DNA of 42,362 bases from Micrococcales bacterium. Lineage in GTDB: Bacteria; Actinomycetota; Actinomycetes; Actinomycetales; WQXJ01. A model generated the notes under the pieces. That model worked only from the letters and a program-made list of their open reading frames with translations. It was not told the DNA's origin and searched no databases. The position numbers and the translations under genes are program-made. Shown here one piece after another: positions 34,468 through 42,188 of the stretch. Location: positions 1-42,362 of the forward strand of contig WQXJ01000017.1 in assembly GCA_009784895.1 (NCBI GenBank), given 5' to 3'. Every line of letters begins with the position of its first letter. The stretch's first letter is position 1.

Positions 34468-34850
34468 GCGGATGAGTCGGCCGGACGGCCGCGGCCGCGG
34501 GCTAGGCGCGAACCTACCGGCGGTCGAGGAAAGTCCGGGCTCCCAAGAGCAAGGTGGTGGGTAACGCCCACCCGGGGTGACCCGCGGGACAGTGCCACAG
34601 AAAACAGACCGCCGCCAGCCGGGCGCTAGACCCGGCCAGCGGTAAGGGTGAAACGGTGGTGTAAGAGACCACCAGCACCCACGGCGACGTGGGTGGCTAG
34701 GTAAACCCCACCTGGAGCAAGGCCAGACAGGAAGCGCCCTAGGGCTGCTCGCCCAAGCTTCCGGGTAGGCCGCATGAGGCCGGTGGCAACACCGGTCCTA
34801 GATGGATGGCCGTCCACGACAGAACCCGGCTTACAGGCCGGCTCATCCGC
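34468..34850 (+). ncRNA. rnpB: RNase P RNA (bacterial class A)
   Basis: Catalytic RNA that trims tRNA 5' ends. GCGGATGAGTCGGCC at 34468-34482 pairs with GGCCGGCTCATCCGC at 34836-34850 to form P1, with one G-U pair. The universal core is present: GAGGAAAGTCCGGGC (34526-34540) pairs across to the ACAGAACCCGGCTTACAG region (34819-34836). GGTAAGGGTGAAACGGTG and the GTAAACCCCAC motif are also recognisable. The length of 383 is normal. It follows the RNase HI-phosphatase gene closely. Confidence 0.96.
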
Positions 34851-38471: not shown

Positions 38472-38652
38472 CAGGGCTTGTTGGCCGCGTTTCCTTTGGT
38501 CCGCGCTTCGCGCTGACCACGTCAACACGGGCGGAGCCTGTCTGGCGACAGGCTCCTGGAAAGTGTCTGGCAACACTTCCCAGGAGCGACAACAGGGCTT
38601 GTTTGCCGCGTTTCCTTTGGTCAGCGTTTCACGCTGCCCACGTCAACACGGG
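38472..38652. repeat. Duplicated hairpin element between pepO and cysE
   Basis: Two 60-base direct repeats (38472-38531 and 38593-38652) flank two more hairpins. Each repeat has its own stem after TTTCCTTT: GGTC.GCGC-TTC-GCGC.GACC in the first, AGCGT-TTC-ACGCT in the second, so pairing is kept although bases changed. Between them lie a perfect 10-bp stem (GGAGCCTGTC, loop TGGC, GACAGGCTCC) and an AGTGT-CTGGCA-ACACT stem. It lies between convergent genes and may act as a two-way terminator or be a mobile palindromic element. It has no coding content. Confidence 0.75.
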
Positions 38653-39276
38653 TCAGATCCAGAGTGCTGGGTCTTCGAGTATGCCCGGGGCAACGCCTTG
38701 GCGGACGCGGCGGACCTTTCCAGGTACGCCAACTACGACATCGCCAGGCGCGACATCTTTAACCACCACCGAGTTGGCGCCAATTCGAACGCCGTCCCCG
38801 ATGTTCAAAGGTCCTAGCACCTTGGCGCCGGCCCCAACAGTGACATGGTTACCCAAAGTGGGATGCCGCTTGCCCTTGACCATAGAGCGGCCACCCAAGG
38901 TGACGCCATGGAACAACAACACATCGTCACCCACCTCGGTGGTTTCGCCGATTACCACGCCCATACCGTGGTCAATGAACAACCGGCGGCCCAGGGTGGC
39001 GCCCGGGTGGATTTCGACTCCTGTCAGTGCCCTGATTAGCTGGCTGATGAGCCGGGCCGGGAGTTTGAGCTGCGGGCGTTGCCACATCCAATGGGTCAGC
39101 CGGTGGGCCCAAAGGGCGTGGACCCCTGGATAACCCAACAGAACCTCGATCTTGGTCCGGGCGGCCGGGTCCAAGCGTTGGGCGGTCGCCAGGTCTTCCC
39201 GGATGATCCTGTGGAAGTGGCGCAGGGAGCTGAGCTGTTCGCTCAGGGCCGGTCGGGTCGATTGTGCACTGGTCAT
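38653..39276 (-). CDS. cysE: Serine O-acetyltransferase
   Basis: 207-residue left-handed beta-helix acetyltransferase making O-acetylserine for cysteine synthesis. The helical N-terminal domain is followed by hexapeptide repeats: [35 protein letters not shown]. The catalytic His region ([20 protein letters not shown]) and [21 protein letters not shown] are present. ATG 39276 begins 2 bases after the cysK stop, and its weak GGAA ribosome site lies in the cysK end, so it is co-translated. The C-terminus ends in DPALWI; whether this tail binds CysK is not clear. Confidence 0.95.
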
Positions 39277-39278
39277 GG

Positions 39279-40220
39279 CTATTCCATCAGGTCGTTGTAC
39301 AGGACAGTTGAAAGATACCGTTCGCCCAGGTCCGGGATCATCACCACGATGGTCTGACCGGCTGACTCGGGCCGGGCGGCAAGATCGAGCGCGGCGGCCA
39401 GGGCGGCGCCAGAGCTGATCCCCACCATCAGGCCTTCTTTGCGCGCGGCTGCCCGGGCCATTGCGATGGCGGTGTCGCCTGGCACGTCGATGACTTCGTC
39501 ATAAACGCTGGTATCCAGCACTTCTGGCACAAAGTTGGCGCCAATGCCCTGGATTTTGTGCGGGCCGGCCTGGCCGCCTTTCAAAGTTGGGGACTCGGCC
39601 GGTTCCACACCGACCACTTTGAGACCGGGTTTGTGCTGTTTGAGAACCTGGCCCACACCGGTGATGGTGCCGCCGGTGCCAACACCGGCCACGAAAACGT
39701 CAACCGCACCGTCGGTGTCATCCCAAATCTCTGCCGCCGTGGTCAGGCGGTGGATTTCTGGATTGGCCTGGTTGGAAAACTGGTCGGCCAAGATGGCGCC
39801 CGGGGTGCTGGCGGCGATTCGCTCGGCGGCTTCAACCGCGCCGGACATGCCTTCCGCTGCGGGGGTCAAAACCAGTTCGGCACCAAAGGCCCTAAACATG
39901 GCGCGGCGCTCAATTGACATTGACTCCGGCATGGTCAAGATGACCCGGTAGCCGCGGACGGCGCCAACAAAGGCCAAGGCAATGCCGGTATTGCCGCTGG
40001 TGCCTTCGACAATGGTGCCTCCTGGCCGCAGCGCTCCGGCCCTTTCAGCCGCTTTGACAATGGCCACTCCAACTCGGTCTTTGACCGAATTGGCCGGGTT
40101 GTAATACTCGAGTTTGGCCAGCACCTGCGTGCCTGGGGCAGCGGCCTTGGCCAACCGGTTTATGCGGACTAGCGGTGTGCGGCCAACAAGGGCGGCCGCG
40201 TCGCTGTAGATTCTTGCCAT
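39279..40220 (-). CDS. cysK: O-acetylserine sulfhydrylase (cysteine synthase A)
   Basis: 313-residue PLP enzyme that makes cysteine from O-acetylserine and sulfide. The PLP lysine is Lys47 in [11 protein letters not shown]. The cofactor and substrate loops [15 protein letters not shown] and [16 protein letters not shown], and the late [12 protein letters not shown], are intact. ATG at 40220 has AGGAG 7 bases upstream. Its 5' leader of about 215 bases contains a Cys-Cys-ending leader peptide and alternative helices, so cysK-cysE is likely controlled by cysteine supply. Confidence 0.97.
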
Positions 40221-40292
40221 GAATACACTCCTGACCTGAGAGCTTAGCTAGTTGGGAGGCGCTGGGCTTGGGCCAGGGCAAACTGTCTCGCT

Positions 40293-40354
40293 CCGGTGCG
40301 CGCCACGTCACCGGCTTCCTGGCGCTGGGTGGGCCTGGGTCAACAACAGCCGGT
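40293..40354 (-). promoter_or_regulatory. Putative cysteine attenuator: alternative RNA helices
   Basis: On the minus-strand RNA, segment 1 (ACCGGCT, 40354-40348, inside the leader peptide codons Thr-Gly-Cys) pairs perfectly with segment 2 (AGCCGGT, 40316-40310). Segment 2 also pairs with segment 3 (CCGGTG, 40314-40309, with CACCGG, 40298-40293). The two pairings exclude each other, so a ribosome paused on the Cys codons would cover segment 1 and favour 2:3. Which fold is permissive is not clear, as no U-run terminator is seen. Confidence 0.55.
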
Positions 40355-40387
40355 CAGTTGCAGGAGATCGAGCGGCTGGCTACGCAT
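40340..40387 (-). CDS. Cysteine leader peptide MRSQPLDLLQLTGCC
   Basis: A 15-codon open reading frame on the minus strand upstream of cysK. ATG is at 40387-40385. The last two codons are TGT TGT (Cys-Cys), followed by TGA at 40342-40340. GGGAGGAG lies 7 bases before the ATG, one of the strongest ribosome sites in the window. Poly-Cys upstream reading frames that act as cysteine-responsive attenuators have been reported for mycobacterial sulfur operons. This one differs in having a Shine-Dalgarno leader. The peptide itself probably has no function. Translation rate at the Cys codons would sense charged tRNA-Cys. Confidence 0.8.
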   Translation of the reverse strand: MRSQPLDLLQLTGCC

Positions 40388-40699: not shown

Positions 40700-41641
40700 A
40701 TGGCTAAGCGATACTGGGGTTTCTGGCGTGTGCCGCTAATCGTGGCGGTGGTGGCCCTTGGCGGTGGCACGGCCGCCTGGGCAGTGCTGTCGCCAACCGG
40801 TGGCGACGAATTGAGCGGCGCCAGTGGCGTATTGACCGCGGGTTTCCCAGGGCAGATGCCGGCTCCGGCCGACCCAGCAGCGCCCACCGTTCGGCTCCAG
40901 CCTGAGGCTTTTGCGCTGGCCGAGGAGCCCGCTGTGGACTGCGACAAGGTCAACTGTGTGGCCCTGACCTTCGATGATGGTCCAGGTGAATACGGTGACG
41001 CCTTGCTGGACCTGCTGGCGGAGAAAAACGCCAGGGCCACGTTCTTCTACCTGGGGCCACCGACAATAACCCACGCCGAGATGGTCAACCGGGCGGCTGC
41101 CGATGGCCACGCCATTGGCAGTCATGCCGCCAGGCACGTTCAGATGACTGAACAAGGTCCGGCTGGGGCCTGCGAAAACGCGGCCACCGGAGGGCAAGCG
41201 ATTGAGGCTATCGGGCTGCCAGCGCCCGTCTTGTTGCGGCCGCCCTACGGTGCCATCAACGGCGCGATCGTGGCGGCTTGCCCGCAATGGAGCTTTGTAC
41301 TGTGGAATGTTGACACCATGGATTGGTCGACCAAGGACGCTGTTCAGATCATGGAGCGCGTTCGCTTGGACACCAAACCCGGGTCGATCATCTTGATGCA
41401 CGAGACGGTCGAGGCTGAACTTACCGCCGTCCCCTTGGCCATTGACTGGCTGCGCGCCAATGGCTTTGTTCTGGTGACAGTGCCGGAGCTGTTTGGCGGC
41501 CAGGCGCCAGCTGGGGAGCGGGTCTATGGTGGCCCGGCACCGACCGTGCCTGAGGTGACGCCGGGCCAGGCGACTGTTCCGGTCATAGCGGGCAGTCGAC
41601 TTCCTCCTGATACTGGCGAGGTTCCTGCGGCCGCAGGCTAG
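40700..41641 (+). CDS. Membrane-anchored polysaccharide deacetylase (NodB/CE4)
   Basis: 313-residue extracytoplasmic enzyme expected to deacetylate peptidoglycan or another N-acetyl polysaccharide. ATG 40700 is set by AGGAGG 11 bases upstream. An N-terminal helix (VPLIVAVVALGGGTAAWAVL) anchors it. The NodB domain starts VALTFDDGPGEYG with Asp92-Asp93. The metal His pair is in SHAARHVQM (His142, His146). LLRPPYGAINGAI and GSIILMHET complete the CE4 motifs. A Pro/Ala/Gly-rich C-terminal tail follows. The common W in SHTWSH is replaced. The target polymer is not known. Confidence 0.93.
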   Translation: MAKRYWGFWRVPLIVAVVALGGGTAAWAVLSPTGGDELSGASGVLTAGFPGQMPAPADPAAPTVRLQPEAFALAEEPAVDCDKVNCVALTFDDGPGEYGDALLDLLAEKNARATFFYLGPPTITHAEMVNRAAADGHAIGSHAARHVQMTEQGPAGACENAATGGQAIEAIGLPAPVLLRPPYGAINGAIVAACPQWSFVLWNVDTMDWSTKDAVQIMERVRLDTKPGSIILMHETVEAELTAVPLAIDWLRANGFVLVTVPELFGGQAPAGERVYGGPAPTVPEVTPGQATVPVIAGSRLPPDTGEVPAAAG

Positions 41642-41746: not shown

Positions 41747-41817
41747 GCGGGCGTAGCTCAATGGTAGAGTCCTAGCCTTCCAAGCTAGCTACGCGGGTTC
41801 GATTCCCGTCGCCCGCT
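41747..41817 (+). tRNA. tRNA-Gly (anticodon TCC)
   Basis: A 71-base cloverleaf: acceptor GCGGGCG (41747-41753) with CGCCCGC (41810-41816), D-arm GCTC-AATGGTA-GAGT, anticodon stem CTAGC/GCTAG around loop CTTCCAA with anticodon TCC at 41779-41781, and T-arm CGGG-TTCGATT-CCCG. The discriminator is T and CCA is not encoded. The last 10 bases plus one, GTCGCCCGCTC, are repeated 14 bases downstream (41822-41832). Confidence 0.96.
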
Positions 41818-41821
41818 CGCT

Positions 41822-41832: not shown

Positions 41833-41926
41833 AGTGCGAATTTCGGGTCATTGTTGACTTTGCGTCCTCCAACATTGGCCAGCCTGGCGCCCGGCTCCGG
41901 GTCCGGCTGCGTCACGGTGGGTTGGG

Positions 41927-42112
41927 CCAGATCGACCTGAACGGCCGAGTGACTGGACCAGATCGACCTGAACAGCCGAGTGACTGGACCAGATCGACCT
42001 GAACAGCTGAGTGACTGGACCAGATCGACCTGAACAGCCGAGTGACTGGACCAGATCGACCTGAACGGCTGAGTGATTGGGCCAGATCGACCTGAACGGC
42101 CCGATGATTGGC
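41927..42112. repeat. 31-nt direct repeat array (six units)
   Basis: CCAGATCGACCTGAAC followed by a GCCGAGTGACTGGA-like half begins at 41927, 41958, 41989, 42020, 42051 and 42082, an exact 31-base period. Units differ at 1-4 positions, and the last unit decays. There are no spacers. The minus strand is open for 104 codons (42162-41848) only because the period shifts frame each unit, so I do not call a gene. Confidence 0.9.
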
Positions 42113-42127
42113 CCTTTACGTTTCCCC

Positions 42128-42146
42128 AGGTGGGCCCAATCCACCT
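42128..42146. other. Small hairpin between the two arrays
   Basis: AGGTGG, loop GCCCAAT, CCACCT. It sits between the 31-nt array and the GTTCATGTCGAT repeats. Nothing coding is seen here. Confidence 0.35.
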
Positions 42147-42188
42147 TGATTGGATTGGTCAAGTCGATTCGGGACCATCATCGAGGCG

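Follow-up and report, generated by a model that had tools for sequence, protein, structure and literature searches.

What does a 15-codon reading frame that ends in two cysteine codons do upstream of a cysteine synthase gene? The frame lies on the minus strand of the 42,362-nt stretch of DNA analysed here (hereafter the window), where it runs from 40387 to 40340 as ATG...TGT TGT TGA (48 bases). Sequence and translation (MRSQPLDLLQLTGCC, TGA stop) agree exactly, and the frame given in a preliminary description of this DNA holds base for base. We consider it highly probable that this leader ORF senses cysteine supply as part of a ribosome-mediated attenuator of cysK-cysE.

A Cys-ended frame upstream of cysK-cysE

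The tandem, putatively regulatory Cys codons (TGT TGT, codons 14-15; 40343-40348, minus strand) adjoin the stop codon. The start codon is preceded by a Shine-Dalgarno (SD) sequence, GGGAGGAG, at 40402-40395 on the same strand, with the spacing of 7 nt that had been described; likewise, the distance to cysK, described as about 120 bases, measures 119 nt from the leader stop to the cysK ATG at 40220. A search of the minus strand recognised no promoter of the sigma-70 type. Downstream, cysK (cysteine synthase A; 39279-40220, minus strand; NCBIfam TIGR01139, 431 bits, cut-off 351) has its own SD sequence, AGGAG, at 40228-40232 (minus strand), and it is followed directly, after a gap of 2 nt, by cysE (serine O-acetyltransferase; 38653-39276, minus strand; NCBIfam TIGR01172, 235 bits, cut-off 211). 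Of the 53 relatives with long flanks, 46 also have a cysE homologue at the same locus. The products of cysK and cysE make cysteine, the very amino acid of the codons clustered at the end of the leader. Because a polysaccharide-deacetylase-like gene upstream of the leader starts at 40703 and diverges, the leader sits in a 482-nt divergent intergenic region.

To gauge chance, we counted SD-led ORFs of 6-50 aa in 5000 dinucleotide shuffles of this 482-nt region between cysK and the divergent gene: 0.26% contained one ending in Cys-Cys, and 1.7% contained one with at least two Cys among its last five residues. Because of these rates, and because ORFs of the looser kind occur four times in the real 42-kb window, the leader locus is no more than suggestive when taken by itself. 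Genome-wide, where our statistics are pattern scans, GGAG-N3..12-ATG-N9..39-TGYTGYTGA occurs twice in the 2.36-Mb genome, one occurrence being the leader. Additional TGYTGYTGYTRA and related matches were considered as further Cys leaders in the genome; read back, they are unlike SD-led leader ORFs.

Other features of the surroundings were recorded in passing. The sequence CCCGTGTTGACGTGG(G/T)CAGCG..GAA.CGC is repeated just 3′ of cysE (38500-38650) and is probably a dispersed intergenic repeat, and a minus-strand ORF at 41848-42162 with internal repeats (QLFRSIW / HSAVQVDLVQSLG) resembles tandemly repeated DNA more than a gene. In the window, Rfam matched only a bacterial class A RNase P RNA (34473-34849) and a tRNA, tRNA-Gly(TCC) (41747-41818), both on the plus strand; no SAM riboswitch or other riboswitch, T-box or other cis-regulator reached the gathering score in the cysK leader.

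Recurrence before cysK in related families

Aligning the cysK upstream regions of related genomes had been proposed in the preliminary description. We compared these regions in 93 loci from 16 families (labelled f1, f9 and so on) of the same order, and we counted as a leader any ORF of 6-50 aa with an SD match, at least two Cys among its last five residues and a distance of at most 400 nt from cysK. Such an ORF is present in 39 of the 93 loci, where shuffled versions of these sequences predict 0.34; owing to sample bias (towards genomes with close cysK matches, with the genera of f9, f10 and f14 added) 39/93 does not estimate an order-wide fraction, and the contrast with the shuffles is unaffected. 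Leaders are found in 18 of 21 loci in f9, 11 of 12 in f10, 3 of 7 in f3 and 5 of 17 in the window's own family, f1. Conservation among the closest relatives is therefore partial: the frame is present in these five f1 loci and no leader is recognisable in the rest, the upstream region being incomplete in some and the leader clearly absent in some.

Elsewhere in f1, the leaders MTRSHPAATARCCC (L004) and MSVNTTHRFACVCCC (L010) lie 133 and 145 nt from cysK, so the spacing is similar in sister genera (119, 133 and 145 nt). An unbiased scan for SD-RTG-CysCysCys-TGA across all 18 genomes of f1 gave 6 matches, 3 of them before cysK; together with the count across families, this strongly supports the Cys-codon leader first described at this locus. 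In Propionibacterium sp. oral taxon 192, MSVASMSACPCPCCR lies 119 nt before cysK, without an SD match. Throughout, the Cys codons stay beside the stop and the N-termini of the peptides are free to vary between families; the window's leader has two Cys codons, compared with three or more in most relatives.

These observations bear on two explanations in which the frame senses nothing. A functionless ORF, in which an ATG and two TGT codons happen to follow a random GA run resembling an SD sequence, would fit the shuffle rates for the cysK intergenic region, the four looser matches in the window and the partial conservation in f1. However, it is very improbable given the excess of such ORFs in relatives, where they hold the same position ahead of cysK, at similar spacing in sister genera. 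As far as sequence comparison goes, this conservation is the decisive evidence against chance; the earlier judgement that the frame is unlikely to be accidental stands by virtue of its recurrence, the locus by itself going no further than suggesting it. That the frame encodes a functional small protein is improbable in the extreme. It has an SD sequence, and co-transcription with the operon is expected, but neither length nor sequence is conserved except for the stop-adjacent Cys run, and the peptide matches no curated leader-peptide protein model or other curated family. Variable N-termini combined with a kept stop-adjacent Cys run are what a codon-sensing device predicts; they are not what a functional protein would lead one to expect. 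Because relatives keep such ORFs far above chance, the leader is very probably a cysteine-sensing switch.

Three relatives without a leader (L005, L006 and L008) share, in the last ~100 nt before cysK, the segment CTTTACAGTG ... TAAGCTGAC ... CGGTGCCGCC..CGGCATCGTCCACC. It resembles a promoter plus a short conserved hairpin and perhaps reflects a different control.

RNA structure downstream of the leader and the output step

In other families of the order, the third base of the leader stop codon opens a helix (TAGAGCGCUGG...CCAGCGCUC). In 31 of the 39 leader loci, 7 or more consecutive perfect pairs extend from this base; shuffling the downstream sequence predicts 2.45 such loci. RNAalifold, applied to 16 representatives, gives 9 pairs, of which 5 show changes on both sides (compensatory), a rough count because L139 is misaligned in the helix. 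One locus (L137) has GAGCAUUGA...UCAAUGCUC followed by UUUUUC, the form of an intrinsic terminator; this U-tract form suggests that the GC-rich stop-codon helices may be terminators or pause hairpins too. In addition, because the Cys codons are at most a few codons away from the stop, a ribosome that stalls on them should, given the size of a ribosome footprint, cover the 5′ arm of the helix. No Rfam family matches the cysK leaders of the relatives, the stop-codon hairpin included.

Viewed as a motif, the covarying hairpin takes the form TAGAGCGCTGG..CCAGCGCTC, in which the first pair includes the final base of the leader's stop codon, and CGCCCC often follows the hairpin; it is seen in L012, L013, L118-L121, L124, L127-L133, L136-L141, L168-L170 and others.

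In the window the stop-codon helix is absent (3 bp at most). Downstream of the leader lies instead a 41-nt RNA block, CCCAGCGCCAGG..CCGGTGA..GGCGCGCACCGG (40289-40329, minus strand), with a conserved counterpart in a sister genus: the alignment with L010 has 35 identical columns out of 42, and 0 of 500 shuffles align as well. L009 shares part of the block, and alignment found no match to it in L004, L003 or L114. The block contains two complementary pairs, GCGCC:GGCGC and CCGGTG:CACCGG; because these pairs cross, two mutually exclusive stems are possible, and the CCGGTG:CACCGG stem dominates in the fold model (0.70-0.98). We also considered an H-type pseudoknot combining both stems; it is unlikely because its third loop would be only ~1 nt, and alternative stems are preferred. 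The leader RNA shows no unusual stability (z = +0.83), and no U-tract intrinsic terminator occurs in the window's leader region.

These features are compatible with the following mechanism, in which translation of the ORF, stalling and an effect on cysK-cysE are inferred. A ribosome would initiate at the ATG led by GGGAGGAG and, when charged tRNA-Cys is scarce, would stall at codons 14-15, beside the stop. The stalled ribosome would cover the RNA around the stop codon and hold the RNA beyond it in an expression-permissive form. With ample cysteine, the ribosome would finish and leave, and the downstream RNA would fold or be exposed, damping expression. In the window, the likeliest carrier of this output step would be the block at 40289-40329, acting on transcription either in a Rho-dependent manner or through a hairpin without a U tract.

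Two other readings concern how cysK is controlled rather than whether the frame is real. A rival for the output step, which leaves the sensor in place, holds that the leader RNA masks the cysK SD unless a stalled ribosome opens it, as in translational attenuation of the mycobacterial type. The modelled cost of opening the cysK ribosome-binding site (RBS) in the window does fall by 2.7 kcal/mol with a ribosome stalled on the Cys codons, and by 1.3 kcal/mol in a longer, assumed transcript; but shuffling equals the 1.3 kcal/mol effect in 31 of 200 cases for the spacer and in 19 of 200 for the whole leader, and over 37 leader loci the mean effect is -0.04 kcal/mol. We regard masking as rather unlikely. 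Because RBS opening falls within the shuffle range and shows no mean effect over the 37 loci, attenuation at the level of transcription would be the preferred output in the window. The other reading dispenses with the leader ORF altogether: the inverted repeat CCGGTG..CACCGG (40293-40314) would be a DNA operator for a repressor that controls cysK independently. The repeat is a near-perfect palindrome and is conserved in two genera, but the motif is not enriched genome-wide (3 matches in G000 vs 5 for the reversed control), and we consider an operator improbable.

Returning to attenuation at the level of transcription, we tentatively suggest that the order may possess an undescribed, widespread cysK attenuator. 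In such a device, the leader stop codon would form the base of a regulatory hairpin, and a ribosome stalled on the adjacent Cys codons would block this hairpin sterically without the need for a separate antiterminator; the window would represent a divergent branch in which a two-state element (40289-40329) replaces the hairpin.

Relation to known cysteine leaders and attenuators

The leader is very probably a known kind of device in a new lineage and gene context, led by an SD sequence and placed before cysK-cysE. In classical attenuators of the trp and his type, the leader ORF carries codons for the amino acid concerned and acts with a terminator/antiterminator pair; no such pair is shown in the window. 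In tnaC the stall position is beside the stop, as predicted for the window's leader, and Rho dependence in the manner of tnaC is one of the two transcription-level outputs proposed here.

Cys leader peptides were predicted in 2005 before cys operons of Mycobacterium and Propionibacterium acnes and before cbs of Bifidobacterium longum; no clear U-tract terminator was seen at these leaders, and Rho was suggested (Seliverstov et al. 2005, PMC1262725). Like the window's, they are short ORFs in Actinobacteria with Cys codons near the stop, 5′ of cysteine genes and without a clear U-tract terminator; they belong to other lineages, whereas the window's leader precedes cysK-cysE and has only two Cys codons. 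That study does not describe the stop-codon helix of the related families. The preliminary description named mycobacterial sulfur operons as the precedent; it was right that the window's lineage differs, but the precedent is broader, as these non-mycobacterial predictions attest. Among the papers searched, we found no report of an SD-led Cys leader before cysK-cysE in the window's lineage and no description of the stop-codon hairpin of the sister families.

The uORFC-8-2 motif, found before cysS in Rhodobacterales and read as a ribosome-mediated attenuator, also has tandem Cys codons at positions 14-15 (PMC8632094). It differs from the window's leader in phylum, in its downstream gene (cysS, not cysK) and in having an intrinsic terminator with a U run, in contrast to the window, where there is no terminator-like site.

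The comparison extends probable cysteine-sensing leader ORFs upstream of cysK to several families of actinobacteria other than mycobacteria. They offer a direct test case for attenuation in GC-rich bacteria, which seldom use U-tract terminators, and the sister families provide, in their stop-codon hairpin, an explicit element open to disruption and restoration tests.

In mycobacteria, ribosome occupancy has been shown on a Cys-ended uORF (Shell et al. 2015, PMC4633059), and two later papers (PMC9094748, PMC13236596) credit cysteine-responsive attenuation in M. smegmatis to Canestrari et al. 2020. Like the window's leader, the mycobacterial leaderless poly-Cys frames are small, finish in Cys codons and lie upstream of sulfur genes; they sense cysteine supply through ribosomes, as the window's leader would. 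However, their mRNAs begin with the frame itself and have no SD sequence, and the strong SD sequence before the window's ATG would argue against a leaderless start of this type. RBS unmasking of the mycobacterial type was not supported by the modelling of the window's leader. Separately, in two loci of one family (L112 and L115), Cys-run ORFs without a recognisable SD sequence (..RMCCCC* and MCCCRPTA*) lie 260-330 nt 5′ of a second cysK-type gene (MSYY...), which is cysteine-synthase-like; these are possibly leaderless Cys leaders.
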